Of a stretch of 64,000 bases of DNA, positions 15,782-60,957 are shown piece after piece. Both the position numbers and the translations under genes were made by a program. The notes under the pieces are model-generated. The model ran no database searches and was not told the origin of the DNA. It saw nothing but the letters and a program-made list of their open reading frames with translations. Numbering within the stretch: the first letter of the stretch is position 1; every line of letters starts with the position of its first letter. Source of the DNA: Neisseria zoodegmatis (GTDB taxonomy: Bacteria > Pseudomonadota > Gammaproteobacteria > Burkholderiales > Neisseriaceae); assembly GCF_900187305.1 (NCBI RefSeq), contig NZ_LT906434.1, positions 2,356,001 through 2,420,000 on the forward strand, written 5' to 3'.

Positions 15782-15941
15782 AAAATTCTCTTTTGTCGAA
15801 AAGCTGACGGAATGAAAAATAAGTGGGAAATTATATAGCGAAGCAGGCTCGTGATGGTACCCGCCGCCCAAACGGGGCTGATAAAAACAGCATGCAGTTG
15901 TTCCATATTTCATCAGTTTCATTCATTAACTAAATGAAACG

Positions 15942-15985
15942 CAAGCCAAAGGCCGTCTGAAATATTTCAGACGGCCTTTGGCTTG
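15942..15985 (-). terminator. Extended DUS hairpin, terminator of the surface lipoprotein
   Basis: A perfect 44-base palindrome: CAAGCCAAAGGCCGTCTGAA, a short A/T centre and the mirrored arm. It lies 36 bases past the stop codon of the TbpB-barrel lipoprotein gene. Confidence 0.75.
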
Positions 15986-16020
15986 TCTTGATAGGAAAGG
16001 AATGTATTAGCAATCAAATA

Positions 16021-16779
16021 TTAGCGCTGACCGGCGATACCGATTTCGCCTTTCTTTTGCATAACCTTACCGGCAACTTCTTCTGCATTGTTACCGAAGA
16101 AGTGCAGATTATAATCGCCACGACCCAGTTTTTCAGACATAGTTTCGCCGCGAACACCGTGGGCGCGAACTTGAGTGCCGTCTAAAGCATTCGTGATTGC
16201 AGTGTGAACAATACCGGCTTCTTTCAGCTCGATAGCACCGGTTTCGTTCAAGCCGGTTACAGTACCGCTACCTACTCGTTTTTCAAAGTCAACATTGTAA
16301 GTCAAACTACCTGTTTCATTGCGACCGAATGCCGCACCTTTATAAGTATATTTACCTTCGGTTGGCAGCTTTTGGGTTGCTTCACCGTTAATCAACGCCA
16401 CTTCCATCGGCATGTCGATAGTGTCGGCTACTTTACCGCCTTCACCGGCAATAGGAAACAAGTCAAACTTACCGGCAACGACAGAATATGCTTGGCGATA
16501 AGCGCGAACATTATTGTTGCCGTCTTTCCAATTAACGACTTCACCCTTTTTCATGTCGGCCACTTTGTGGGTAGTTTCGCCCAACTTAATGGTGTACTCA
16601 TTTACCTTGAAAACGGTTTTACCGGCTGAGCCTGCATTGGCCACCTGCTCAATTTTAGCCGGTTGAATAGCTGCATTAGGCGTTGCAGCTGCAGAAGGGC
16701 CGTCACTACCGCCGCTACCGCAAGCAGCCAAACCCAAAGCGATAAAAGTAGCCAATCCGATTTTTTTGTGAATAGACAT
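16021..16779 (-). CDS. Slam-type surface lipoprotein with TbpB/fHbp-like beta-barrel
   Basis: The 252-residue protein has a lipoprotein signal (lipobox LAAC, Cys20) followed by a low-complexity Gly/Ser/Ala linker. The C-terminal half has the features of the 8-stranded barrel shared by TbpB, HpuA, fHbp and related Slam-exported lipoproteins: TGSLTYNVDFEKRVGSGTV and, close to the end, LHFFGNNAEEVAGKVM. Start 16779 is preferred over an ATG 15 bases upstream because GAGGA lies eight bases before it. Such proteins are carried to the cell surface by Slam and often bind host iron proteins or complement regulators. The ligand here is unknown and no slam or tonB-receptor gene is adjacent. Confidence 0.8.
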   Translation of the reverse strand: MSIHKKIGLATFIALGLAACGSGGSDGPSAAATPNAAIQPAKIEQVANAGSAGKTVFKVNEYTIKLGETTHKVADMKKGEVVNWKDGNNNVRAYRQAYSVVAGKFDLFPIAGEGGKVADTIDMPMEVALINGEATQKLPTEGKYTYKGAAFGRNETGSLTYNVDFEKRVGSGTVTGLNETGAIELKEAGIVHTAITNALDGTQVRAHGVRGETMSEKLGRGDYNLHFFGNNAEEVAGKVMQKKGEIGIAGQR

Positions 16780-16814
16780 TTCCGTAATCCTCATGTTTGT
16801 TTTAATAAAATTGA

Positions 16815-16833
16815 ACGTGATTCACTGTCACGT
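16815..16833 (-). promoter_or_regulatory. Operator-like palindrome near the lipoprotein transcription start
   Basis: ACGTGA and TCACGT form a perfect 6-bp inverted repeat separated by seven bases, positioned seven bases downstream of the candidate -10 box, where it would overlap or adjoin the transcript start. No regulator can be assigned. Confidence 0.3.
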
Positions 16834-16839
16834 GTGCAT

Positions 16840-16867
16840 ATTATCAATTCACAACATATCTTTACAA
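16840..16867 (-). promoter_or_regulatory. Candidate promoter of the TbpB-barrel lipoprotein
   Basis: On the minus strand TTGTAA (16867-16862) and GATAAT (16845-16840) are 16 bases apart. The -10 box is a 5-of-6 match. Confidence 0.4.
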
Positions 16868-17168
16868 GACACAAACAGGTAAAAATGCAAAATAATTACG
16901 ATATTTACATTTCAATATTTGGAAATATTACAATTAATTATTAAATTATTTATTTGTATTATTTAATTTGGTTAAATTTATTTACAATTTACTGTTTTTA
17001 ATAAATTTAAATTTTTTAAAGTATTTTTCAAAAAATTCTAAACAGCAAACAACAGTCTTGTCACTTAATCGCAACATTAATAATTTCTTAGATTATTATA
17101 TTTTTAATTGCAAATATTTATTTACATTTCTTTTCCATTTCATTGTGAAAACCCCCTGCTCATTTAAC

Positions 17169-17203
17169 AAAAAAAACGGAAAAGCAAAAGCTGCTTTTCC
17201 GTT
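17169..17203 (-). terminator. Classical rho-independent terminator of the dispersin-like gene
   Basis: On the minus strand a 12-bp perfect stem (AACGGAAAAGCA with its complement, five-base loop) is followed by a run of eight T residues, about 110 bases after the stop codon at 17312. It is not built from DUS, unlike most terminators nearby. Confidence 0.78.
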
Positions 17204-17311
17204 GTTTCTGTTTCGTTTCGGTATTGTTTCATCTGACAAAAGGGTCGTACTTCCGAATCTTTCGTCAAGATACACCTACAAAATTCAATCTAAGTCGGCA
17301 AACATCTCAAA

Positions 17312-18499
17312 CTATCTGCCAGCTTCATGTGTTTTACGGATCACGGTAGCCAAAGGTTTGGCGGCACGTCTGCGGATGGTATTGATATCGAGTTTACCGC
17401 TGTTTTCACCCCAAATAGCCAACGCCGCGCCTAAGATCTTATCGGTGTTTGCAATCTTATTAGCACGGTTTTCGCCGTCCCATACGCCTAAATCCCAGCG
17501 TTTTTCAATATCGGCTCGGGCAAAATCTACATCGTGCTTGAAGTTTTTACGGTCGCTTGGCACCAGATACAGATAATAAGAATTGTAGTTCAACACCGAA
17601 AAGCCTTTGTCCATCAGATCAGGCATACTCATGCGGATTTCGCGGCGTCTTTGTGCCGTATCGCGGTTATCGGGATCGCCGTCGTAACTCCAATAAGTAA
17701 TTTGAATATTGCGGTTCAGGTTATCTACCGTCCCTTTGATCAAACCGTCGTTCCACATGCGGGTGGTCAATTTTCTTGCGGCCAAATGGTCGGCCAACAT
17801 GTTGGCATAGCGGATAAATTCATGGTTGCTTTCGGAGCTGTATCCGAATTCATCACCGCCGATATGGAAATGCTTGCTGTTTTTACCGAAGGCATCGGCC
17901 ACTTCATTGATCAGCGTTTTGACGAATTCAACGCTTTTGGGATTGTTGACATTGATTTCGTCCGAATCTTGAGGAGATTTCAAAGCGTTCACATAAGCCT
18001 TGCCGTGTTTAAGCTCAAGCAGCGTGAAAATACCGGTCATGTGGTTGGGGCTGCCGACTTCGGGAATCACTTCCACTTTCCTTTCCGCCGCATAGCGCAC
18101 GATATCGTTTACCTGTTCGAAACTCAAAAACGGCTTGCCGTTTTTAGGGTTGATATAGATGCCGTCTTTACCGCGGATGGCATCTTTCGCCCTTTGTCCC
18201 AAAAGGTGGCTTTCTAACGCATAGTTTTCATGGTCGGAAAAGTGCAGGTGCAGAAAAGTGCCGCCGGATTTCGCCAAATCATCGATAAAATCTTTGATGG
18301 TGCGCACGGGGTAAAACCTTCTGGCGGTATCCAGCATCAAACCGCCCTGCTTATATTTGCCGTGGCTGTGCATGCCTGCCGCGAGAGACTCTTGCCGCCC
18401 CGTGGGTGCTAAAGAACATAATACTGAGAAAGCGCCGAACAACAGATATAAAGAAGATTGTTTCAGGATTTTGGATAAAGCGTGAAATTTATGATTCAT
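17312..18499 (-). CDS. dspB: Dispersin B homologue: GH20 beta-hexosaminidase
   Basis: The 395-residue protein aligns end to end, from memory, with dispersin B (DspB) of Aggregatibacter: LHLHFSDHENYALESHLL, GKDGIYINP, HFHIGGDEFGYS and YWSYDGD are nearly identical. With a constant offset of 33 residues, all active-site positions I recall are kept: Arg60, Asp216-Glu217 (catalytic pair), Trp249, Trp270, Asp275, Tyr311, Trp363 and Glu365. Dispersin B cleaves poly-beta-1,6-GlcNAc (PNAG) and disperses biofilm. A hydrophobic N-terminal segment (about 15-42) indicates export through a signal peptide; there is a Cys28 but no good lipobox. The gene has its own classical terminator, AT-rich flanks and no DUS, as expected for acquired DNA. 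Confidence 0.92.
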   Translation of the reverse strand: MNHKFHALSKILKQSSLYLLFGAFSVLCSLAPTGRQESLAAGMHSHGKYKQGGLMLDTARRFYPVRTIKDFIDDLAKSGGTFLHLHFSDHENYALESHLLGQRAKDAIRGKDGIYINPKNGKPFLSFEQVNDIVRYAAERKVEVIPEVGSPNHMTGIFTLLELKHGKAYVNALKSPQDSDEINVNNPKSVEFVKTLINEVADAFGKNSKHFHIGGDEFGYSSESNHEFIRYANMLADHLAARKLTTRMWNDGLIKGTVDNLNRNIQITYWSYDGDPDNRDTAQRRREIRMSMPDLMDKGFSVLNYNSYYLYLVPSDRKNFKHDVDFARADIEKRWDLGVWDGENRANKIANTDKILGAALAIWGENSGKLDINTIRRRAAKPLATVIRKTHEAGR

Positions 18500-18807
18500 A
18501 AATATTTGAAATGTATGAGTTATTTGGGTTTAAATTGTTATTCTAGCCTAATTTTCAACCATTTTTATAATAATTCTCCGGCAAGACGTTCAAAACGGCT
18601 CTTATTTTTCCTTCTTTTACGTCATCTGCACGCTCATTTTTCAAAGTTCGAGCACATCCGAAAAATATAAAAAATCATTTTAAAATATGAAGTTGAAACG
18701 GTTTTCTAGCTTAAAAAATCCGAATCATTTATAATTGCATCATTTTCACCCTCTAAAAAATCAAACAGGCCGTCTGAAAAAGACGGCCTTCAGCAGGAGT
18801 ATCCGCC
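18500..18807. other. AT-rich divergent region between dspB-like gene and sspA
   Basis: About 308 bases with no reading frame. A TATAAT box at 18730-18735 is a likely -10 for sspA, although no good -35 is spaced from it. A DUS-derived hairpin lies in the sspA leader (18767-18789). I see no clear promoter for the dispersin-like gene. Confidence 0.5.
18767..18789 (+). promoter_or_regulatory. DUS-derived hairpin in the sspA leader
   Basis: AGGCCGTCT, five bases, AGACGGCCT. The second DUS copy has lost its TTC end, so the arms are nine base pairs. It ends six bases before the AGGAG ribosome site of sspA and lies downstream of the TATAAT box, so it would be part of the leader RNA rather than a gene end. 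Confidence 0.45.
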
Positions 18808-19413
18808 ATGATGACACTTTACTCGGGCATCACTTGCCCGTTTAGCCAGCGTTGCCGTTTTGTTTTGTTTGAAAAAGGCATGGATTTTGAAATCAAAGAC
18901 GTTGACGTGTTCAACAAGCCCGAAGATTTGGCCATTATGAACCCCTACAACCAAGTGCCGGTATTGGTTGAGCGCGATTTGATTCTGCATGAGTCCAACA
19001 TCATCAATGAATATATCGACGAGCGTTTTCCCCATCCGCAACTGATGCCGGGCGACCCCGTTATGCGCGGTCGCGGCCGTTTGGTATTGTTCCGCATGGA
19101 AAAAGAGCTGTTCAGCCATGTACAAACGTTGGAAAACCCCGAAGCCAGCAGCAAAGAGCAGGCTAAAGCGCGTGAAGCGATTTCTCAAGGCTTGACCATG
19201 CTTGCTCCCGCATTTTCCAAAACCAAATACATCATGGGCGACGATTTCTCAATGATTGACGTGGCTTTGTCGCCGCTGTTGTGGCGCTTGGATCATTACG
19301 ACATCAAACTGGGCAAATCGGCCGCACCGATTTTGAAATACGCCGAACGTATTTTCCAACGCGATGCTTTCATCGAAGCCTTAACCCCCGCAGAAAAAGC
19401 CATGCGCCGCTAA
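18808..19413 (+). CDS. sspA: Stringent starvation protein A (GST-fold RNA polymerase-binding protein)
   Basis: The 201-residue protein has the thioredoxin-like N-terminal half (MMTLYSGITCPFSQRCRFVL, then NQVPVLVERDLILHESNIINEYIDERFPHP) and an all-helical C-terminal half of the glutathione S-transferase fold. SspA homologues bind RNA polymerase and modulate stress and virulence genes rather than acting on glutathione. AGGAG lies seven bases before the ATG. sspB follows after 43 bases with a DUS in between; the two form the typical sspAB unit. Confidence 0.93.
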   Translation: MMTLYSGITCPFSQRCRFVLFEKGMDFEIKDVDVFNKPEDLAIMNPYNQVPVLVERDLILHESNIINEYIDERFPHPQLMPGDPVMRGRGRLVLFRMEKELFSHVQTLENPEASSKEQAKAREAISQGLTMLAPAFSKTKYIMGDDFSMIDVALSPLLWRLDHYDIKLGKSAAPILKYAERIFQRDAFIEALTPAEKAMRR

Positions 19414-23532: not shown

Positions 23533-24777
23533 TTAAAATTCAGACGGCACCTCTACCGGGCCTCCGTCATCGCGTTTAACCAAACGCCAAACGGCATCAT
23601 CTTTAGTTCGATGACGTTCTCCATTGGGCAAGACCCAAATATGCTCGCCTTCCATCGGAAAAATTTCTCCTTTTTCAAAATGTTGTTCAATCCCTTCAGA
23701 AAGGTTATCCGGCACCCACATACCGCTGAAAGGCACTTCATACGGTTTCTGGCGGTACACCGGCATCAACTCGGCTTTATCCCCTTCAGGGTTGAAAATA
23801 CCCTGTTCGAAATTAGCGTTATCCCAACGGCGCAGCCAATAATAACCCTGCGAGGCCGAATAACGGGTTTTGCCGTTGCCGTAAGCGGAATGCATCGCAT
23901 CTTTCAGCTTTTCCACCCGAGCCGGACGCAGCAGGTTGTTGACCACCAAATAGGGAACCGGCAAGGGCTTGTTGCGGTCGCCGGTTGACGGGAAACTCCC
24001 CGCTTTGAATATCATCGTGTCGTTACAGGTTTGCAGGGTAATGTCGGGATAGTGGTTTAACACATTGTCCACTTCCTGCTTGTTCAGACGGCCTTGTAAT
24101 TTTTTACCGACAAAGGTGTACCAGTTGATAGATTTCAGGCCAGTCTCCCAGTTGGTATCATTTGGTGAAAAGTCAGGTGTTACGCCCCAATAACGTTTGG
24201 TAGTACTGTGTTCGTAAAACTGGTATTCGTAACCGCCATAAGGCAATGAAAGCGTCAATCCGGCATAACCGTGAAATATGGAAAACTGTTTACAAAGATA
24301 TGTTATCCACTCTTCAAACTCCTGTTTACCTTGAGATGTTTGCAAAAGGGAAACCGGCAAATTAATTTGAATATAGGATGGTTCTGCATTCAGTTCTATA
24401 TCGGGTCTTGCAGTCAGTGTCCTTATTGCATAGTCAGACGAATAGTCGCCCCACTCATCACTACTTAAATAACCGAATAAAGCCTCCCCTTGCTCAGCTG
24501 CTGCAATCATTTTCTGTTGTTTTTTGACAAAGGCCGTCTGATTCAGTTTAGCGAAGCGACGCATCCCTTTCCAAAAATGGGATTTCAAATAGGGATGGTA
24601 ATGCATATAGAAGCGGTCAAACACTTCCAAAACCTTGCGCTGCCCTGCCACCGAGCCACCGTCGTGAAAGTAAATCAGAATAACCAACCCCAGTTGTGCC
24701 AATATCTTGTGCTCTTCATCGTGCAGAAGAATATCGCGGTATTCCTGCTCCAAGGCTTCGTATTGTTTTGATAGCAT
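23533..24777 (-). CDS. DUF3396-type T6SS immunity protein (TsiV-like)
   Basis: The 414-residue protein has no signal peptide, so it acts in the cytoplasm. The region around 25-320 matches the DUF3396 / type VI immunity family (LGLVILIYFHDGGSVAGQR, GYAGLTLSLPYGGYEYQFYE, GLKSINWYTFVGKK). Residues 330-414 form a second, probably SH3-like, domain (ending in GEHIWVLPNGERHR). It starts three bases after the stop of the VRR-NUC effector gene, with AGGAAA before the ATG. DUF3396 proteins are the known inhibitors of VRR-NUC effectors (TseV/TsiV pairs of Salmonella), so the partner assignment is well supported. Two DUS copies lie in the gene. Confidence 0.82.
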   Translation of the reverse strand: MLSKQYEALEQEYRDILLHDEEHKILAQLGLVILIYFHDGGSVAGQRKVLEVFDRFYMHYHPYLKSHFWKGMRRFAKLNQTAFVKKQQKMIAAAEQGEALFGYLSSDEWGDYSSDYAIRTLTARPDIELNAEPSYIQINLPVSLLQTSQGKQEFEEWITYLCKQFSIFHGYAGLTLSLPYGGYEYQFYEHSTTKRYWGVTPDFSPNDTNWETGLKSINWYTFVGKKLQGRLNKQEVDNVLNHYPDITLQTCNDTMIFKAGSFPSTGDRNKPLPVPYLVVNNLLRPARVEKLKDAMHSAYGNGKTRYSASQGYYWLRRWDNANFEQGIFNPEGDKAELMPVYRQKPYEVPFSGMWVPDNLSEGIEQHFEKGEIFPMEGEHIWVLPNGERHRTKDDAVWRLVKRDDGGPVEVPSEF

Positions 24778-24780
24778 GTT

Positions 24781-26235
24781 TTATTTCCTATGTCGGTTAT
24801 CAAATTCTCGAACTTTTTCTTCCCAACCCTCCAAATGGCTGGTATCCGAATTTTCACCGCATTCTTGCCACGGCAGGTAACGGATAATTTCATATTCATT
24901 GCGTTTATATGTTTGACCTTTCGGTTTCCTCTCAACAAGGTAGTGATACTCATAACAATTGCTGCGCTCTTCAAAACGTTCATCCGCCGCCCATACCTTT
25001 GCTGACACACCTAATGCAGGGGCAAATCTAGCAAGCCTCAATAAAAACGTTCCGGCGCCCAGTAGTGCGGCGGGGGCGAAATAAGCCGCTGCTGCAACAA
25101 CCGCGACTGTCAGCACAACGATTGTGATGATTTCTTCTTTGTTGTCTTTAACAAACTTCAACGCCAAAGCCAGCGTATCGTCACCGGACATTACCACCTC
25201 TGCCTCCTGAATATAAGGCAGATGGTCACGCGGGATATCTTCATATTGTTCCAGATAGTCGGCAGCTTGCTGCAACTCGGCATCACTATATTCGACAACC
25301 TGACCATTTTCGCCTACCCAGCGTATGCCGTCTGAAGTACGTTCGAAATTGCCGAAACTGTCAAACCAAGGCGAATTGCGGCTCAACATTTCTACGGTTT
25401 CCGGACGGTAAGCCGCTTCCAAATCTTGCTTGTTAACCAATTCGCCGGACAGGATGTTGACAGGTTTGCCCGATGGAGGCGTTAGCCACGGTTCAAGACG
25501 AATTTTAGGCAACAGTTCTTCTTGTTTAAAACCAAACGCAGGCACCAAATCGGGCGAAAATTCATAAATATGCCGTTTGTTGTCTTTATTATTATCTTGC
25601 CAAATTTTTAATACGGCAAAGCGTTCGTGAGTGGCTATTTTTTTATAGGTTTTTTCCTGCTCATCATCCAAATAGTCTTTTCCATACTTCATTTCCACCA
25701 ACCGTTTGAGATTGTGACCATAGCTTTCTCCTGTAGGCGGATATACGGCATTACGTCCCGGCCAACGGATTTTATGATCTTTGACGATAATCAAATCAGG
25801 CCGCTTGACAGTAGCAGCAGCCATAATGGCCGGTGAACCCTTCCAACGTGTATGTCTGCGGTTTTTTCCTTCGGTAGTCGGATCGGTTAAGCCGATTTTT
25901 TCACCGATTTTTTCGATATAGTGTTCATTTTCCTGCTGCTCTTTTTTCCCTGCCTGCCTGTTTCTAGTCAAATGAGGCACAGGCGTTCCTTCTCCTTGGG
26001 GAACGCTGAAACTGACTTCAGGTTTGTAAGGCCAATAGTAGCCGGTCATTTTTTCCGTTAAGTTGACGACATGATCAAAGCCGTTTTGCTTTTTATCCTG
26101 CGTTTTCTTCCCCATCCGAAGTTTGGGTTTGTAGTATCTGAGAACGTAATCCCATACCAAATAAAGATAACCTAAATCAGACAATTCAATATCGGCATAT
26201 TTTCTATCAACTTCCAGTCGTGTAATCATCGTCAT
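24781..26235 (-). CDS. VRR-NUC nuclease effector of type VI secretion (TseV-like)
   Basis: The 484-residue protein carries a PD-(D/E)xK nuclease of the VRR-NUC type: KRPDLIIVKD (metal-binding Asp147), LVEMKYGKD (Glu181 and Lys183) and the downstream helix with DEQEKTYKK (Gln193, Tyr197). The preceding 140 residues lack a known marker domain. After residue 330 it has an acidic segment and one strongly hydrophobic stretch, IITIVVLTVAVVAAAAYF (about 362-380), then a basic Cys-containing tail. Such enzymes cut DNA of competing bacteria. The start follows the vgrG stop by five bases, so translation is coupled, and the cognate immunity gene follows by three bases. Confidence 0.82.
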   Translation of the reverse strand: MTMITRLEVDRKYADIELSDLGYLYLVWDYVLRYYKPKLRMGKKTQDKKQNGFDHVVNLTEKMTGYYWPYKPEVSFSVPQGEGTPVPHLTRNRQAGKKEQQENEHYIEKIGEKIGLTDPTTEGKNRRHTRWKGSPAIMAAATVKRPDLIIVKDHKIRWPGRNAVYPPTGESYGHNLKRLVEMKYGKDYLDDEQEKTYKKIATHERFAVLKIWQDNNKDNKRHIYEFSPDLVPAFGFKQEELLPKIRLEPWLTPPSGKPVNILSGELVNKQDLEAAYRPETVEMLSRNSPWFDSFGNFERTSDGIRWVGENGQVVEYSDAELQQAADYLEQYEDIPRDHLPYIQEAEVVMSGDDTLALALKFVKDNKEEIITIVVLTVAVVAAAAYFAPAALLGAGTFLLRLARFAPALGVSAKVWAADERFEERSNCYEYHYLVERKPKGQTYKRNEYEIIRYLPWQECGENSDTSHLEGWEEKVREFDNRHRK

Positions 26236-26240
26236 GGTAT

Positions 26241-28775
26241 TTACTCGTCGTCGTAAATTTCAAAATGCAGATTAATTGTGCCTCCGCCTGCAATATGTAA
26301 AAGATGCGGTGCTTTCTTGGGCTTATCTTCCCGAATAAATTCTACTTTTTGAGGAGAGGAAGTCGTAACCAACAAGGTTTCTCCTTTGTGGTTAGTTATC
26401 CCTTCTACTTGACTACCGTCCTCTAAAGTCAAAGTGTATGGGCGGTTAACCAATACATTTTGCGTTTTTTTATCCCTCAAAATATAACGTCCAGAATATA
26501 AAGGCTCGAATTTTGGCAAATTATTTGCTATAGCATGAGGATTGATGACCTGAAACCCTGCACACTTCACCCACACCATCTTCGGACAGCCCAGCTCAAT
26601 GTTGCCATCCTTAATCTTGATATACGCCCCACCGCTGGTGAGCAGGATTTCGTCTTTGGCGGCCACGGTTACTTTACCGGCGCTGCTGGTAATGGTGGCG
26701 TCTTTGAGGGCGTTGATCTGCATCTCGTCGTTCTGTGCCTGTATCTCCACCTTGCCCTGATTGGCCTGTAACTTCGCCCCGTTGCTCTGGGCAAACAGGT
26801 TGACGCTTCCGACCGCATGGGCGGTGAATTTGCTGCCGGCGCTGATGTCGGTGTCGCCGCCGCTGATGTGGTGGATGTGTTGGCCGGCGGTATGCAATTG
26901 GCTTTGCGGGGTGGCGCTGGCGATGCCGTCGGGGGCGGATTGGATGATGCCGGCGCGTTGCAGCTGTTTGAGGCTGTCGTTCAGACGGCCTGCCTGTTCT
27001 TCGGCTTCGGTGGCTTCGTTTTGGGCGGTGTGGGCGGCTTTATTGAGGCTTTTGGCTAGGGAGATTGCCTGTTCGAGCTGGGCGATGGCTGCATCCATAT
27101 CCAACACCTGCCCCGCCGCCTGATTTTGGGCATCGGCACTGATGAACAAGCCTTTGCCCGCCCTTACCGCCCCCCAACTGTCGGTACGCAGCTCGAAGCC
27201 TTCGCCGTTGTCGCCGCGTTTCTGTCTTTGGCCGTCGACGATATGGCCGAGGTTGAGTTGGGTTTTGCCGTATTCGGTCGCCAATTTGATGTGTTCCTGC
27301 CCCTGTTTGTCTTCCATGCGCAGCTTATTATTCGCCCAAGTACGGATAACGTTGCGGGTGTTCCAGTCGGCAGGCACGTGGTCGGGGTGGGAACTGTCGT
27401 GCATCACGCCGCTGATGTAGGGCCTGTCGGGATTGCCCTGTACAAACGACAGCATTACTTCGGTGCCTTCGTGCAGCGGGAAGTGTTGGCCGTAGTCGGG
27501 GCCGGCATAGGGCTTGGCTAAGCGGATGGGACGGCTTTCTCCGCCCGGACTCCATTCATCAAGGTCGAACGGCAGTTTGACGCGGTAACGGCCCATATTG
27601 TCGATATAGGCGTAGGTGTAGTTGCCGGGGCTGGTGACTCTGGCGGGAAGGCTGCCTTGGATCTTCGGCAACGGGGTGATGCGTTCGGGGCGGAAGATGC
27701 TGTCGGCGGGAATGGCGGTGAAAGTATGGCTGTATGCTTGGTCGCGGCTGCCGCTGTGGGTGAGCGATACCGCCAACCAGCCGTTGGGTGCTTCGCTGAA
27801 AGCCGGGGCCGTCTGAAACACCAGACCGGGGCGAAGCGCGGTGATGTTGCCGCTGCCGGAAGCGACGATACGGCGGCTGTGGTCGAGCTGTTGCAGTAAG
27901 GCCGTCTGAAGTTGGGCTTCTTCGGGTGTTTTTTGATGCAAACCCCAATGGCTGTCGCTGCCGAGTAAGACGCTGCTGTCGGTTTCCGTACCCTTCGCCG
28001 TTACTGCGGACGATAAGTCGGTATCGGCATCGCGGTAGTTGTAGTCGCCGACGCGGATGGATTCGAGAATGGGATTGTGCTTCACCTGTAAGGCAAACAC
28101 CGCTTCCTCGCCAACGCTCTCCAACCCGCCGTGGGGGCGGTAGGGATAGGGGGAAGTGTGGCTGCGAAAATAATGGGCGGCATCGTCACCGAATACCGCC
28201 ACATCGCCATATTGGGCATTCTGCTCGAAGGCATACCAAATCCCTTCTTCTTCGCACAGCCGGTTGAGAAAGGCAAAGTCGGATTCCTGATACTGGGTCA
28301 CATACTCGCGTACACCGTATTCGCGTGAGGTATTGAAACGGAAATCGACGCCGGAGAAGCCGTGGTGTTTCAACAGCGACGAAATAATGTCGGGCACGTT
28401 TTGGTTTTGAAACAGACGCGAAGTGCGGTGGTGCTTCAATGCGGCGATGCGGGGTTCCAATACCATGCGGTAACGGGTCTCGTCCGCCGATACCGACAGC
28501 TTCTCGCACGAAGTGATGATGCCGCTCCATTCCTTCAGCGCTTGGGGGGCGATCATTCCTTCGATCAGTCCCAATGCATCGCTACTCACCGGCGTTACCG
28601 TAAACTTGGCCGCTTGGTTGATGTAGGACGACAGCGGTAAGTCTGAATCAACAGAAGTAAGTTCGATGTCGAGACGGTAGGCTGTGTTTAAGGCTTCGGT
28701 GGCGGTGAAGGAGACGACGGAGAGGGACGGACTGAAGCGGGAGAAGCTGAGGCGGTAGGATTGGGTTTGGGTCAT
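26241..28775 (-). CDS. vgrG: VgrG (TssI) spike protein with C-terminal extension
   Basis: The 844-residue protein is a full VgrG: gp27-like N-terminal region (about 1-370), gp5 OB-fold (about 385-480, PYAGPDYGQHFPLHEGTEVML), and the trimeric needle with DUF2345 region up to about 730. The last 100 residues (after GCPKMVWVKC) form a small beta domain, YILRDKKTQNVLVNRPYTL...DGSQVEGITNHKGET, that resembles the transthyretin-like adaptor domains which dock effectors on VgrG. It heads a three-gene unit vgrG - nuclease - immunity. VgrG is the puncturing tip of the T6SS; no sheath, baseplate or membrane-complex genes are in this window. Confidence 0.93.
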   Translation of the reverse strand: MTQTQSYRLSFSRFSPSLSVVSFTATEALNTAYRLDIELTSVDSDLPLSSYINQAAKFTVTPVSSDALGLIEGMIAPQALKEWSGIITSCEKLSVSADETRYRMVLEPRIAALKHHRTSRLFQNQNVPDIISSLLKHHGFSGVDFRFNTSREYGVREYVTQYQESDFAFLNRLCEEEGIWYAFEQNAQYGDVAVFGDDAAHYFRSHTSPYPYRPHGGLESVGEEAVFALQVKHNPILESIRVGDYNYRDADTDLSSAVTAKGTETDSSVLLGSDSHWGLHQKTPEEAQLQTALLQQLDHSRRIVASGSGNITALRPGLVFQTAPAFSEAPNGWLAVSLTHSGSRDQAYSHTFTAIPADSIFRPERITPLPKIQGSLPARVTSPGNYTYAYIDNMGRYRVKLPFDLDEWSPGGESRPIRLAKPYAGPDYGQHFPLHEGTEVMLSFVQGNPDRPYISGVMHDSSHPDHVPADWNTRNVIRTWANNKLRMEDKQGQEHIKLATEYGKTQLNLGHIVDGQRQKRGDNGEGFELRTDSWGAVRAGKGLFISADAQNQAAGQVLDMDAAIAQLEQAISLAKSLNKAAHTAQNEATEAEEQAGRLNDSLKQLQRAGIIQSAPDGIASATPQSQLHTAGQHIHHISGGDTDISAGSKFTAHAVGSVNLFAQSNGAKLQANQGKVEIQAQNDEMQINALKDATITSSAGKVTVAAKDEILLTSGGAYIKIKDGNIELGCPKMVWVKCAGFQVINPHAIANNLPKFEPLYSGRYILRDKKTQNVLVNRPYTLTLEDGSQVEGITNHKGETLLVTTSSPQKVEFIREDKPKKAPHLLHIAGGGTINLHFEIYDDE

Positions 28776-49906: not shown

Positions 49907-52900
49907 TTACCACTGATAGCCTACACCTGCGGTTGCACCGTAGTGACCGCGCGAATTGCCGGTGGCCGTGCCTTTGATGACCCAGTTGCCGTTGTCGGAA
50001 ATGCTAGAGAAACCTACGGCATAGCCGCTCTCGCCTTTATAGGTGCCGCCTGCAACCGCCATCATGCTCTTGCCGGGCAGATAGGCTTGAGGCAGACCGG
50101 CCACTGCCATGGCGGCAGCCGTACCGGCATTCGATTGCGCTTCAACGTCTTCAATGCGTTGGTTGAGGTAGTTGCCTACGTTCACCACTTGATTGCCGAC
50201 TTGGTTGATGGCTTCGTTGGTGTGATGCAGCTGGCTGCCGTTGATGGCATCGGTGGAAGTGGGCGATACCACACCGGCGGCAACATTCTGAATCTGGCGG
50301 GTTTGGCCTTCGGTGCCGACGCTTACCACGCCGACAACGTCTTTCACGCCGGCCACATTGGCGTCATTCGCACCTGCGTAGGTGTAGTGGCCGCCTGAAG
50401 CCGTGGTGTGGATGGCCGTTGCAGAAGCGTGGTCGCCCAGATACACGGAGTTGACCAAAGTAGCCTTGATGTTGCTGCCCAATGCGTAGGCGTTGTCGGC
50501 CGACACGGTATTGTTGTTACCTACCGAGTAGGCGCTGTTGCCGGTTACCACGGTCGGGTCGCCGATTGCGCCGGAGTTTTTACCGCGGACCACGTTGCCG
50601 GTACCGATGGCAATGGTGTTTTCTGCCAAAGCCTGCGAACCCGTACCCATGGCAACGGCGCGTAAACCGGTGGCCATTGTGCGTTGCTCGTAGCTTACGG
50701 AGCCGTCGGCACCTTTCACTTCAACCAGCTCGGCACCTGCGGTTTTGGCTTCGGTTTTGTAGGTATTACCCATTGCCAGCGCACCGTCGCCGCGTGCAGA
50801 TGATTGGTAACCGATTGCGGTTGAATAAGCACCTGAAGCGCTGGAGTCTTGTTGGTTGCTGCCTTGGGCTACCGGTTTCACTTCACCGTCGTTGGTGTGG
50901 AAGAACTTGATACCTTGTTCGTTCATTTTACCTACCGCCTGAATCACGTCGTTGGTCACATAAGTGTTTTGGCCTGACACGTTGTACGTTACCAGCGTGT
51001 ATTGGTTGCCGCCTTTATCGGTAGAAACCGCTACTTTTTGGTTGGTCTCAACAGTTGTCGTTTGCGTACCGTCGGGGTTGGTCACCACAGTAGTTACCGT
51101 GCCTGCGGGCGCGGTGTTGCCGGTGCTGTCTGTTGCGGCGGGTGCGTCTTTCATGTTGATCGACGTATTGTTGCCGCCCAATACTTGGTAAGCCTGATAC
51201 AGCTGGCTGCCGTTGACCGCTTCTTTGCTGGTGGCGGAAATTTCGCCGTCAGCTACGTTGGTCAGTTTTTTGCCTGCGGCATCCAAACCGCCTACGGTCA
51301 GGCTCGGGCCGTTGGCAATGCTGATGCCGTTGCCGTCAACCGTGGTATTGCCGCCTACGGCTACGCTGTCCACCTTCAGATCTTTGGCGGTGGAAACTTT
51401 GTAGGTCGTGCTGCCGTCGGGATTGGCGGCGTTCTCTACCACAATATTGTCGCCTTGCACCACGGCCACTTTGCTGACGGTAACTGCGCGGTTAACCGCT
51501 TTAATCGCATCGTTCAGATTGTTTGCACCCGTGCCGCCGATATTGGTCATGCTGATGCCGCCGTCGGTGGTAACGCTCGCATCACCGCCGAACAGATTGG
51601 CTACGGATGCCGCAGTATGGTGCAGTTGGCTGCCGTTCACAGCATCGGTGCTGTCGGCGGTGATGCTGCCTTTGCCGACATTGGCCACTTTTTTACCGTT
51701 GGCATTGATGCCTTGAGCAGTCAGGTAAGTATTGCCGCCAACGCTTACGCCTTTGCTGTCGAGCACGACTTCGTTGGCGCCTTTGCCTGAAATAACGCTG
51801 TTGAAGTTCACGTCGTCGGCAGTAGTCAGGGTGTAGGTGGTGCTGCCGTCGGTGTTGGCTTCTTCTTTCACGGTCAGGTTGCCTTGTGCGGCCACTTTAT
51901 TGCTGGAAGCGGCTTTTACTGCATCAAGCTGGGCTTTGTTGACGGCATCGGTAGCCTGCTCGCCCGCTTTCACGCCGGTGATGCGCTTGCCGCCGGCATC
52001 AATGCCTGCGTAAGTAATGTTCACTTCTCCTGCTTTGAGGCCGTCTGAAGTCAGGGCTACGTTGCCGCCCACAGACACACCGGCGTTGTTCACAACGGTT
52101 TTGCCGGTCGTAACGCTGCCGTTTTCGCCCAAGTTCACTTTTTCAGCCAATTGGATAGCCAAGCTGTTGTCTTCGGTGCTGCCGGTTACGCCGATGTTGT
52201 TGTCGGTTAATGCTCCGGTGGCGCCGCCTTTTACTTTCAGCTCGGAATCAAGGTTGCGGATCACTCGCACATTTTGGTTGTCGCCGACAAAAGTCAAAGG
52301 CTTGCCGATTTCGGCATTGAGCAACTCCAGCGCGTCGCCGACGTTATTCACGGTTTCGCGGCCGCCGTTGTTGCGGACAATGTTGTACACAGGGTCTTTG
52401 ATGCTGCCGTCGGCACTCACTTCCGCGCCGCCGCCCAAGGCTTTTACGGCGTTTTTCAGCTGGCCGATGTTCGCCGCATCGTTGTTTTTCTTACCGTCTG
52501 CGATGTTGCCGATAATGGTCGGCACGGCAGTTTGCGGGTCGAGCGGGTTCAGAGACGAAATCGTGATGTCTTTTTCGGTGTATCTCGTGTCGTCCTTCAC
52601 TTTGACAAAGTATTCTTTGCCTTGATCATCCACTTGGCGTGCCAGTATTTCTCCTTTTGAATTCACATAAGAGAACGGCGAGTTGGCCTGTACCAATGAT
52701 TGATGGGTAATGGTTTGGTTGTCCAACGCGCGCTGCAGCTGAGAAACGTTAACCGCATCTCCGGCTTCAGAGCCATCTTTCACATTGGTGATTTTCTCGC
52801 CGCCGGCATCCAAGCCTTGCGCTTTCAGACGGCCTTTGAATACAGGCGCATCTGCGAGCAGGATTTGGATATTGCCGGTGCTGTCGGCCACGGTGCGGAC

Positions 52901-55900
52901 ATTGGTGTCGGAAGCCGCTGCGGCATTGTCCAACCCGCCTTTAATCGTAGTGCGCTCGCCCAAGCGGCGGTTGAAGTTGCCGCTGTTGCCGGCGAAGTCC
53001 AAACCGCGGTTTAGGGCGGCGGTGTTGTCGGCAACCTTTTTATCCACGGCGAAGAGCTGGTCGCCCGTTACTGCTTCTTGGCTGCCTTCGGCCACAGAGC
53101 CGTTCGCCAAGCCGGTAATCACATTGCCGCCGTTGTTCAAGCCGGCAGAAGTGAGGCTGACTTTTTTGTCGCTGGCCGGGTTGCTGACTTGGAGGCCGTC
53201 TGAAGTCAGCGCCACATTGTCGGCAACGGCCACGCCGTTCTCGTCCACTTTGGTTGCGCCGGTTTGTACGGCTTCCACTTTCAGGGTTTTGGCCAAGTCG
53301 AAGCTTACGCGGTCTTCTGCGTCTGCTTTGGCAACGAGGATGTTGCCGTCGGTGTTGCGCAGGTCAACGGTTTCGCCGGGCTGTACGTTGCTGCTGTTTT
53401 TGCCTTGGGCGGTGAGGTTCCAACCGGTGTTGGCGGTGTTTTTCACAGCTGCGATGGCGTCGCTGATGGTGCTTTCGCCCGTGCCGCCGATATCACCGTT
53501 GGCATAGCTGCCGGTGGCCGGGTTGTAAACGGTATTGCCGCCGACCAGAGTTTCCACGCCTTTACCTTGGGCATACAGTTGGCCGCCGTTGACGGCTTCT
53601 TTGCTGCCTTCAGCCACATTGCCGGATTCGATACCGGTGATCTTGCCGCCGTCGTTCACGGTTACTTTGCCGAATTTCGGGCTTTCGGCCAGCTCGATGG
53701 TCATCGTGCCGTTTTCTACTTTGGTGCGGATGTTGTGATCGCCTGCTTGGGCGTCGTCAGCCAACGAGCCTTTAATCGCCAGCGTTTCATCCAGCTTGCG
53801 CTCAACCGTGCCGGTGTTGCCCGCAAAGCGGATAGGCTTGCGGATTTCGGTGCCGATATGGTCGATTGCGCCTTGGATGGTGTTGACTGCGGGATAAGTG
53901 CTGCCGTCGGTGCGCGGTACGGTAAAGGCCGGTGCGCCGAAATTGCCGCTTGCCGCGTCGAAAGCCATACCCAAAGCCGAAGCCAGAGGGGTCAGCTGCG
54001 ATACGTTAACGGCATCGTTGCTATTTTTACCTGCGGCGATATTGATGATGGCGTTTCCACCGTTGTTGAGGCCGTCTGAATTCAACACAACAGGGGCTTT
54101 GCCGTTTTTCGCATTGCCGATGGTGAGGCCGTCTGAAGTCAAGGCAGCGGTTTCGCCGACTTTCACACCGGCATTGTTCACCACGGTGTCTCCGGTGGTG
54201 ACGCTGTTTGCGGTCACTTCATCAGCCAAGTCGAAGGTAACTTTGTCGCTGTCGGCCGCTTTGCTGATGACGATGTTTTTATCGGCGCTTACCAAATCAA
54301 CGGTTTCTCCGGCACCTACGTTGCTGCTGTTGTTGCCTTCGGCCGTCAGGTTCCAACCCGCACCGGCGGTATTGCGTACCGATTCGATGGCTTCGTGGAT
54401 GTTGCTCTTGCCTGTGCCGCCGATGTTGGTATTGGCATAAGTACCGTCTGCGGGGTTGTAAACGGTCGAGCCGCCCAACACTTTCTCAATGCCTTTGCCT
54501 TGGGCATGCAGCTGGCCGCCGTTAACGGCGTCTTTGCTGTCGGCTGCCACTTCACCGGCCGCGACATTACGGATAACGGTATCGGCGGCATCCAAGCCGT
54601 TTTTGGTTACGCTCGGGCCGTCTTTGACAGTAAGGCCGTCTGAAGACAACACGCTATCGCCTGCGGTAACGCTTTGGATAGTCAGGTTTTCAGCCAGATT
54701 GAAGGTTACGTCATGGCTGTCGGCTGTTTTGCTGATCACGATGTTTTTATCGGTGTTTTTCAAATCAACCGATTGCTCGGGCGCAACTTTGCTCAGGCCG
54801 ATGCCGTTGGCAGTCAAGCCCCAGCCGGCGTTCATTCTGGTTTCCACCGCATCGAGCTGCGATTTGTTCACCGCATCGGTTGCCGCTTCGCCATTGGCCA
54901 CGCCGGTAATGCGGGCATTGCGGGCATCGAAGCCGTTGGCCGTGACTTTGCCTGCGAAGGTCGGCGCATCGGCAAACTGGATTTCGACTTTGCCGTCGGT
55001 TACAACGGTGCGGACATTGGCGGCAGATGAAGTGCCGTCAACCAAACCGCCTTCGATTGCCAGTTTGGAACCCAGCGTTTGATCCGAGCCGCCATTCACG
55101 ACTTTGCTTGATCCGTTGTTGGTATTGCCGCTGATGGTAATCGGGTCTTTCAACACATCGTTCAGATGGCCTAATGCCTCGCTGACGGTATTAACGGTGC
55201 CTGCGGTTGTGCCGTTGGCACGGGTGATGGTGTAAACGGGTTTGACCGTCTCGCCTTGCTCATTGAGGCTGCCGCCCAAAGCAGTCAACACGTCTTTCAA
55301 CTGCGCCGTATTAACGGCGTCGGTATCTTGAATACCTTTCGCTACATTGGTTACGCGGGTGGCGACGGTGGTTTGCAGGTTGGTCGGGCTTAATGCGCTC
55401 ACAACGATATCGTTGCCGTCATAGCGGGTTGTGCCGTCTTCCGCTTTCACGAAATAAGGTTGGCCTTGCGGATCCACCTTACGGATCAACTTGTCTCCGG
55501 CCGCATTGATATAGGCGAAAGGCGAATCGGCTTCTACCAAAGACTGGTTTTCAACGGTGATGTCTTTCATGGCTTGTTTCAGCTGATCGACGTTAACCGC
55601 ATCGGTTCCCAGCGCACCTTGCGCCACGCCGGTAATCTGCTGGCCGCCCGCATCCAAACCTTGTGCTTTAACCTTGCCTTTAAACACCGGATTGTCGGCC
55701 AATTTGATCGTAATCGCGCCGTTGCCGTCGTTTTCAGTTACCAGATTGTCGGCCGATGCCGCGCCTGCATAATTGCCCGCTTTGATGCTGAGGGTAGAAC
55801 CCAACTTGCGGGTGCTGTCCGCACCTTTATCAGCGGCGAAAGTCAACGGCTTTTCAATTTCTTGATTGAGGCTGTTGAGTGCGTCCTGAACCGTATGTAC

Positions 55901-58900
55901 GGCAGGTTTAGCCGTACCTTCTGTGGTTCTCAGGGTGTAGCTCGGCTGGGTATAGCTGTCGGTAGCCGCATCATAAGTGCCGCCCAAAGCCGCCATATTG
56001 CCTTTAGCGATGTTGTCGCTGTCTTTCAATTGCGACATATTCACCGCATCATCATCGGCTTGGCCTGCCGCCACTTTGGTAATCTTCTTACCTGCGGCAT
56101 CTACTCCGGCTTTGGTCACGCTCGGGCCGCCTTCGATGGTGAGGCCGTCTGAATTCAATCGGCTGCTGCCGGTTCTCAAAGAAGTCAGGGAAACATCCGG
56201 ATTCAACTCAACTTGAAGACCGTTTGTATTGGCAGTAGTTGTGATGTTGGCATCGCCGCTAATGGTGAAGCTCTCGTCCAATTTCTTCACAGATGAAGAG
56301 CCGCCTTTACCGTCGGCCAGTTTCAAACCTTTGCTGTCCACGGCATCTTTGGCCGCCGCGCCTTTGCGGATGTCTTCTTTGGCGGTATCGGTCAGATCAA
56401 CGGTGTACAGAGTAATGTCGTCGGCACCTTTATTGCCGGCAACAACAGACACACTGCCCGCACCTTGTACCGTGGTTTTTTCGGCATGAACGGTATAAGT
56501 GGTGTGGTTGCCTTGAACGCTGTTGGTTACACGGGTGTTGTTGCCTTCAACAACAGAAGAAGTTTTCTCTGCATCGTTAATGGCTTTGGCCACATCGGCT
56601 GCCGTCGCGAATACGTCGCCGGTTTGCTCGGCGCTAACCGTGCCGTCGGCAACCGTGAAGCCGGTTTTGTTTACGGAGAATTTAACGGTAGATGAATTTT
56701 CAGCCGTGGTTTCCACAACCGCAGTCGTGCCTTCGCCGTTAGCAAAGTCCACCACATCGTTGTGCTTAACCAGATCTTTTTGTTGGGTATTGTTGCGCAG
56801 ATTCCAGCCACCGTCGGCAACTTTGTCCAACTGGCGTTTGGTTACCGCATCACTGTCACTTTGGCCGTCGGCAATATTGCGGATGACATTGCCGCCGTTG
56901 TCGAGGCCGTCTGAAGACAGGCGCACAGCGTTGCTGCCGGCAGGCGCAGCCGGAGTAATGGTAATGCCGTCATCCGCTACTTTGGTTTTGCCGGTTGTGA
57001 TGCTGCCGTCGGTGCCCAAATCCAATGTTTTGGCAAGCTCGATAGAAATCGTACCGTTATCGGCGGTTGTGCTGATGTTGGTATCGGCACCTTTCACAGC
57101 AACGGTCTCCCCCAATTCGCGCTTGAACTCAGTACCTTTATCGCCTTGGAAATTCAAGCCTTCGGCAATCTTGGCGGCATTGCTCTCAATAGCTGTCGTA
57201 TTCTGCTCAATTTTCTCGGCGTTTTCAGCAGCCTTAGTAGCAGCTTCTTCGGATTTGGCTTTATTGGCTGCAATCTGAAGGGTATTGGTTTGAATCGAGG
57301 CTGCATTGTCGGCAGACTTGGCTTTATTGGCTTCGATCTGATTTTTCACTTCATCTGCCAACTTGAAGGTTACGCTGCCATTCGCGGCTTCGGTAACGAT
57401 TTCACCATCTTTGCCGTTGAACTGAATGCGTTCGCTTAATGCGCTAGTGCCTTGAGTACCATTATTACCACCATATTGGAAGTTCAAATTGGTACCGTCA
57501 GTTTTTGCCAATACAGACGTATCTACCGATAAATCATATACATTGGCACCGCCTTCTTCAGTTTTCACAATCTTAACGGTGTTGTTTGCAGATTTAACTT
57601 GGGTGCGTCCTCCATCAACATATGCCTTGTTTGCCGCATGGTCGTCAGCAGTAGGGGTAGCAACACCTACAATCACTTTATTACCTGAATTGATACCGGC
57701 ATTGTCGATACGGACACCATCAACAGCAACGCTGTTGAACACTACATCATCTTTGGTAGCTACGCTTACTTTGCCACCTGTTTGTGTCAACTTGATGTTT
57801 TTACCCGCATCAAGGGTAAGCTTTTGACCATTTTGCAATTTTTCAGGTGTTACAGTAGCAGCCTCACCTTCTGAAGCTGACGTCTCCACTTGAATGCCTG
57901 CTGCTTTCAATTGAGCTACGTTAACAGCATCGGTATCTTGAGTACCGGCTGCCACTCCGGTAATTTGGCGGGTGACACCTCCTGCCGTATCACCTACTGA
58001 TACCGCAGCACGGCTTGATGTCCACGTAGTATTATTTTTATCTGCCACAACTCCCAATACGTCAACACCTGCAACATTAGCGTTCACTTCGGTTTTACTC
58101 AGATAACCAATAGCTACACCACCAGCAAGATTGGCATTGGCCTGACGACCTAAAGCAACCGCCTGTTCTGCAGAAGCCACAGATGAAGTACCTACCGCAA
58201 CAGCATCGCCGGCAGAAGCATTGGCAGAATTACCTACCGCTAATGCACTTTGGCCGCCTGAAGCACGGCTTGCGGCACCCAAAGCAAGGCTGCGGTAAGC
58301 AGATGCCTGCGCATCATAGCCAAACGCACCCGCTCCTCCTTCGGTCGCACGTGAATAAGCACCAACGGCAGCGGCAGAATCAACGGTAGCATGCGAACCG
58401 TCACCGATTGCCACCGTTGATTTGCCTTTGGCATGTGAATCCTGTCCACCTGCAAAAGAATTTTGGCCTGATGCTTCAGATGCTTGACCTATGGCTGTTG
58501 CATTCAAACCGTTTGCGGTACTCGAAGCCCCTACTGCAACCGAACCACCCCCCGCTGCCGCCACTTGAGCCTGATGACCGATAACAACAGCATTGGCAGC
58601 AGCAACAACAGCATCTTTACCCACTGCAACAGTATTAGCTGCCTGTGCACGCGTACCATGCCCCAAAGCTAAAGACGACAAGCCCGTAGCTTGGGTTCCT
58701 ATGGATCCCACCGCCACAGCATAATGAGCGGTAGCTTGGGTATTGGATGCCGTATTCTGTGAAGAACCGATAGCGATGGAAGAGGTTCCACTGGCTTTAG
58801 CAGCATAACCTTGCGCTATCGAATAATTTCCACTTGCTTCCGAGCTGGCACCGATAGAGGTTGAAATCAAACCGAGTGCTTTCGATCGGGCCCCGACGCT

Positions 58901-60889: not shown

Positions 60890-60957
60890 CATTTTTCCTT
60901 TAGGTTATGCTGCCTGACCGACTTCCGACTGCAGCGCTGACATTTTCCCGAGAATCA

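Follow-up and report, generated by a model that had tools for sequence, protein, structure and literature searches.

A dispersin B homologue of Neisseria zoodegmatis that probably acts on the cell's own PNAG matrix

A gene at 17312..18499 (minus strand) of the window, by which we mean the whole 64,000-nucleotide stretch of N. zoodegmatis DNA analysed here (NZ_LT906434.1, positions 2,356,001 to 2,420,000), probably encodes an exported GH20 enzyme of the dispersin B (DspB) clade that remodels the PNAG matrix of the cell that makes it. The open reading frame, its Pfam match and a match to solved structures identify the product as a single-domain GH20 dispersin of 395 aa. PNAG (poly-beta-1,6-GlcNAc) is the adhesive sugar polymer that keeps many biofilms in one piece, and the most likely target is the cell's own, since the genome has an intact pgaABC locus and, among 46 Neisseria genomes, dspB was found in none that lacks pgaB and pgaC. 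The dispersin would thus serve the pga system from an unlinked site, as a factor for remodelling the matrix and for release.

The gene and its product

Pfam recognizes one GH20 domain in the product (PF00728; 124 bits against a cut-off of 22.3, E 1.2e-35), which is also the sole match of a GH20 search of the genome; an NCBIfam search with the 395-aa product matched no family. The top solved structure is DspB (1YHT; 453 bits, E 9.5e-135). Three Firmicute dispersins, DispTs3, DispTs2 and DispLp (8qak, 8qb6 and 8qce), for which PNAG activity has been reported (Males 2025, PMC11883664), rank next, with only 129, 116 and 93 bits. The window protein is nearer to DspB than to solved GH20 chains that are not dispersins, which score at most 59.4 bits among the best 60 of 66 matches. 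Its residues 49-391 align to DspB 16-358 with zero gaps, so that the offset of 33 is constant throughout, and 198 of the 343 core residues (58%) are identical in the DspB of Aggregatibacter actinomycetemcomitans, for which P0026 was used. The domain, the score to DspB and the ungapped alignment bear out the initial annotation of a dispersin B homologue in a Neisseria genome. The two proteins share a single GH20 domain, an N-terminal signal (putative in the window protein), the catalytic pair, Arg27, Glu332 and three pocket tryptophans (DspB numbering), and both occur in genomes with pgaB; they differ in 42% of core positions by the count above, in a glycine (Gly149) for Asp116, and in the replacement of D245 and E248.

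Dispersin homologues in Neisseria are already in print. DspB homologues with the same conserved residues have been described in 14 Neisseria species, and the N. zoodegmatis and N. dumasiana entries of Table 1 of that paper have 395 aa each, the length of the window protein, which may be that N. zoodegmatis entry (Kaplan 2024, PMC11357414).

Codons 1-40 (18380..18499, minus strand) contain a likely export signal of Sec type, a basic start followed by a hydrophobic stretch, which was judged by eye and from the N-termini of relatives. The annotated enzyme was called secreted, and the putative signal agrees with this. No lipobox is found by pattern, either here or in the near-identical P0001. A coarse lipobox pattern fits the N-terminal region of 16 of 120 dispersin homologues (P0007, P0009, P0010 and P0036 among them), and some of these may therefore be lipoproteins.

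On the 3' side and on the same strand, dspB is followed by a hairpin, a lipoprotein of the factor H binding type and the gene of an M1 aminopeptidase, named pepN. On the upstream side the divergent genes are that of a GST-fold protein, which takes the name sspA from its neighbour, and sspB. The hairpin, with its T-run, resembles an intrinsic terminator, as described initially (17175..17203, minus strand; a weaker plus-strand reading overlaps it), and terminator-like sites number 7 in 15900-18900 against 3.4 +/- 2.0 in shuffles. A weak promoter-like site upstream (18664..18691, minus strand) is at chance level (7 in the region, 7.2 expected). The lipoprotein (16021-16794) carries the C-terminal domain of factor H binding protein, which is over the Pfam cut-off and below the NCBIfam cut-off; of the other dspB loci retrieved, only that of N. 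zalophi has a relative alongside.

Active-site residues

The nine pocket residues named in the initial annotation are all retained in the alignment, which runs ungapped over 343 residues: R60, D216, E217, W249, W270, D275, Y311, W363 and E365 correspond to DspB R27, D183, E184, W216, W237, D242, Y278, W330 and E332. Its statement that the whole catalytic pocket is kept goes too far, as the active-site residue Asp116 of DspB is replaced by Gly149 (18053..18055, minus strand; alignment and codon). The catalytic pair Asp216-Glu217 (DspB D183-E184; 17849..17854, minus strand; alignment and codons) is retained in 120/120 homologues. The residue set of Kaplan 2024 (Arg27, Asp183, Glu184, Glu332, Trp216, Trp237 and Trp330) is present in full (7/7). 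Section 3.7 of Males 2025 (PMC11883664) gives six residues as conserved only in dispersins (His53, Asp116, Trp216, Asp218, Trp330 and Gly331), a list drawn from few enzymes of one alignment and not a definition; five have equivalents in the window protein, and Asp116 is the one absent. Ten of 11 further dispersin-conserved residues from the same source are retained, Ala102 being replaced by Arg135. Of three residues in the anionic groove, D147 is kept (D180), and D245 and E248 are replaced by N278 and T281; in DspB itself, the changes D245N and E248A had no effect on biofilm dispersal beyond error (Breslawec 2020, PMC7949127).

Position 116 is variable among the 120 homologues (Asp 66, Gly 43, Glu 9, Ser 2), so Asp116 does not define the DspB clade. 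Glycine is found there in 8 of the 21 other Neisseria copies, spread over more than one branch, and the dispersin of Otariodibacter oris (Pasteurellaceae) has Asp116 though it is nested with the Gly-bearing copy of N. zalophi. The persistence of glycine in more than one branch suggests a working variant.

From these residues, a functional PNAG hydrolase is expected. The predicted protein would leave the cytoplasm through its putative Sec-type signal, would then pass the outer membrane and, as a beta-1,6-N-acetylglucosaminidase, would cut PNAG by the substrate-assisted GH20 mechanism (Males 2025, section 3.5), in which Glu217 would serve as the general acid/base and Asp216 would hold the acetamido nucleophile. 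Cells would then be freed from the matrix. This last step is suggested by dspB mutants of other species: that of A. actinomycetemcomitans shows no dispersal, and that of A. pleuropneumoniae aggregates and makes more biofilm (Kaplan 2024, PMC11357414).

Association with PNAG synthesis

The genome encodes intact pgaA (588005-590407), pgaB (590658-592538) and pgaC (592669-593895), which score 547.6, 661.8 and 577.8 bits, all over curated cut-offs. A search for pgaABCD had been proposed with the initial annotation; its first three genes are there, while the 103-aa ORF that follows pgaC, in the place of pgaD, matched no NCBIfam family at E 0.001. The locus is not adjacent to dspB: the distance is about 766 kb if the single contig is circular. 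In three other genomes (G016, G043 and G044) about 15 kb separates dspB from pga. PgaB also has a glycoside hydrolase domain (GH153) that cuts PNAG, and its gene is found in the same genomes as dspB; unlike the dispersin, it is encoded in the pga operon, is fused to a deacetylase and belongs to a family other than GH20 (Males 2025, PMC11883664).

Across 46 Neisseria genomes, PgaB and PgaC are over cut-off in an identical set of 22 and PgaA in 20. The two genomes that make up the difference (G013 and G032) have a partial PgaA match (175 and 151 bits) on a separate contig, which suggests a split or divergent outer-membrane part of the system. All 18 genomes with dspB lie within the 22, leaving 4/22 pga-positive genomes without it, and dspB is found in 0/24 of the genomes negative for pgaB and pgaC (Fisher p 2.6e-9, a value that ignores kinship). 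An rpoB tree from a quick search, with 43/46 genomes (G034 and G035 had no match, and G023 a broken gene), gives eight independent pairs that differ in dspB. In five to six of these pga differs in the same way, in none the opposite way, and in two to three not at all (sign test median p 0.06, range 0.03-0.06). After correction for kinship, the link between dspB and pga in Neisseria is borderline.

A similar distribution is seen in the Pasteurellaceae, where dspB is present in 19/140 genomes and PgaB over cut-off in 29/140, both being found in 18 (Fisher p 2.8e-14), a count that includes G090, in which both genes are broken. Eleven of the 29 genomes with PgaB have no dspB. The sole dspB-bearing exception is O. 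oris, which has no PgaB over cut-off and a best PgaC match of 87 bits against a cut-off of 422. In other Neisseriaceae, PgaB occurs in 2/37 genomes and dspB in 0/37, so that the homologue which Kaplan 2024 lists for Kingella oralis was not encountered among these genomes. Of the open-licence PMC papers that literature searches listed, none connects dspB with pga across Neisseria; Males 2025 states that it examined whether dispersins and PNAG operons are correlated, and reports on four species (PMC11883664).

These distributions allow a broader proposal, which we put forward tentatively: dspB may be an unlinked accessory gene of pga in both Neisseria and Pasteurellaceae, kept or lost with it, and an escaped copy, that of O. 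oris, may serve as a tool against the biofilms of other species. The notion that the Asp116-to-Gly change marks a working active-site variant belongs to this proposal and is held with the same reserve. Natural Gly116 dispersins also offer enzyme studies of biofilm removal something new to work with.

Discussion of PNAG in Neisseria has centred on the human pathogens, in which no pga locus is known. With PgaB and PgaC in 22 of 46 genomes, 18 of them with a dispersin, the formation and release of PNAG biofilms can be tested in this genus by gene removal. In gonococcal biofilm the effect of DspB was described as negligible, on data not shown in that paper (PMC4772129).

Alternative functions

Three other functions can be considered for the protein. 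Many GH20 enzymes are generic beta-hexosaminidases, and dispersins too cleave aryl GlcNAc substrates (Males 2025, PMC11883664), so the product could be a scavenger of GlcNAc, taken from host glycans or pieces of chitin. Such a role is very unlikely given the link with pga, the ungapped alignment to DspB and the gulf between 453 bits to that enzyme and the best of the non-dispersin GH20 chains (among the best 60 of 66 matches). A weakened or altered enzyme, in which Gly149 makes a slow hydrolase or shifts substrate preference, is also quite unlikely. Asp116 is among the six residues listed by Males 2025 for dispersins only and lies at hydrogen-bond distance from a catalytic residue (PMC11883664), and activity may therefore differ in its absence; against this stand the recurrence of glycine in 43/120 homologues and on more than one Neisseria branch, and the invariance of the catalytic pair.

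The enzyme could also be released mainly against the PNAG biofilms of other mouth bacteria rather than the cell's own, an option named by Males 2025 (PMC11883664). The case for competition comes from O. oris, whose dispersin is 83% identical to that of N. zalophi and whose genome has neither PgaB nor PgaC over cut-off, which makes a foreign target likely there. For Neisseria we consider competition rather unlikely: a weapon does not require an owner that makes the polymer, though a producer could profit from one, and yet dspB is absent from all 24 Neisseria genomes that lack pgaB and pgaC. The initial annotation had left the choice between the strain's own biofilm and those of competitors, and of these two the genomes favour the first and disfavour the second, activity being predicted in either case. 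Remodelling of the cell's own PNAG remains the preferred function.

Origin of the gene

The initial annotation read the AT-rich flanks, the lack of DUS and the terminator as all pointing to transfer, and gave Aggregatibacter and Actinobacillus as the genera from which DspB is known. The flanks are indeed rich in A and T (their GC is 0.31 on the upstream side and 0.25 on the downstream side, that of the window 0.52), the GC3 of dspB is 0.556 against a median of 0.66 for the 36 long ORFs of the window, and the gene lies in a 2.8-kb gap without the DUS core. Its GC of 0.474 is the third lowest of these ORFs and within their range. That the gene is free of DUS is correct as an observation and uninformative for transfer: 0 copies of the 10-base core are found where 1.8 are expected from 96 cores in 64 kb (P(0) = 0.17), and the gap is the third of six longer than 2 kb, the two longer ones measuring 3.8 and 4.4 kb. 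DUS absence was rejected as a sign of transfer on these grounds.

The location of the gene and its phylogeny also speak against recent arrival. It lies between pepN and sspA in the window genome (with the lipoprotein also between them) and in G011 and G012 (N. dentiae); it is beside sspA and a lipoprotein in N. zalophi (G045) and near pepN in G021. Its residence in this lineage would go back far enough for relatives to have the gene at the same site. Elsewhere in Neisseria it is found beside what we take to be genes for superoxide dismutase (four genomes) and ilvB (four), and near a presumed lysS (two). In a tree of 71 rows (22 copies from Neisseria, 18 of 19 from Pasteurellaceae, and 31 of the 120 homologues listed), the window protein groups with P0001-P0005 (support 100/99; P0003 is N. 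dumasiana), and then with N. dentiae and G021 (100/94). The 11-row group that holds it consists of Neisseria copies and homologue hits, any named hit being Neisseria, with no row named as Pasteurellaceae. The GH20 tree proposed with the annotation accordingly places the protein in a Neisseria clade; it contains no chitobiase, and its outgroup does not form one side of a branch. With the shared site and the placement of the gene in a Neisseria clade, a recent source in Aggregatibacter or Actinobacillus is not supported, and the recent acquisition of the gene by this strain from one of the Pasteurellaceae through horizontal transfer, a matter of origin and not of function, is very improbable.

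Deep forks between Neisseria and Pasteurellaceae lack resolution in the 71-row tree, and long branches are present. A second tree of 25 rows dropped G032 and two of the four second Neisseria copies described below, and kept 6/19 Pasteurellaceae. The dspB tree rejects three constrained groupings: G000 (the window genome) with G002 and G028, taken from the rpoB tree and chosen after the first dspB tree (AU p 0.016); the same three with G045, a constraint that also forces O. oris from G045 (p 4e-47); and all Neisseria copies, second copies included, against Pasteurellaceae copies (p 0.0002). The conflict between the rpoB and dspB trees indicates that dspB moved or was differentially kept within Neisseria. 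Kaplan 2024 calls the dspB tree congruent with the species tree (PMC11357414); the present trees differ from that statement in the conflict for the window lineage and in the position of O. oris within the N. zalophi group.

One cross-family move is clear from the sequences, from Neisseria to the Pasteurellaceae. The O. oris dispersin (G186, P0015; L149 9751-10950) groups with that of N. zalophi at 100/100 in both trees, and its identity to two Pasteurellaceae copies compared is 60-61%, against the 83% given above. Its gene lies between a LysR-type gene, which adjoins metE, and uvrC. N. zalophi and O. oris both come from sea lions. No paper on dspB transfer was found in the open-licence PMC literature. 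A near source on a plasmid or phage was rejected: tblastn gave matches in 280 plasmid and 28 phage records, none of them reaching 60% identity, and among the matches listed (eight each) identity was 24-30%. Three Staphylococcus phages (OP913464.1, OP913463.1 and OL436245.1) encode stretches that resemble dispersins (27-28% identical), within genes whose annotation is tail fibre.

Long second copies and other features of the window

Four of the 46 Neisseria genomes (G006, at L035 424-2838; G026; G030; G041) have a second dispersin copy of 726-804 aa, with a long N-terminal part of low complexity and an extra C-terminal part. Lysine replaces the substrate-binding Arg27 in 4/4 of these copies. 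In DspB, R27K lowers efficiency about 2400-fold (cited in section 3.5 of Males 2025, PMC11883664), and the long copies may therefore bind PNAG rather than cut it. Searches with the ends of a long copy gave little further. Pfam returned nothing except a sub-threshold match inside the GH20 part, and NCBIfam only weak matches, far below cut-off and in the low-complexity part. Tail and head searches, which admitted proteins of 0.55-1.75 times the query length, a range in which large adhesins could not appear, found three and four proteins, all with GH20, the two named ones being Neisseria. We had presumed that the ends were type I secretion parts; with no support from the family, head or tail searches, that reading is not established.

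Two further loci of the window may be mentioned. At 23533-28775, a VgrG (26241-28775) precedes a VRR-NUC protein (24781-26235) and an immunity protein of TsiV type (23533-24777), and from these families the locus is predicted to be a T6SS set of nuclease effector and immunity protein; the VRR-NUC and TsiV-type ORFs are the two lowest in GC of the long ORFs of the window. At 49907-60892 lies a trimeric autotransporter adhesin of 3661 aa with an extended signal peptide, YadA stalk and head repeats, and a YadA anchor.
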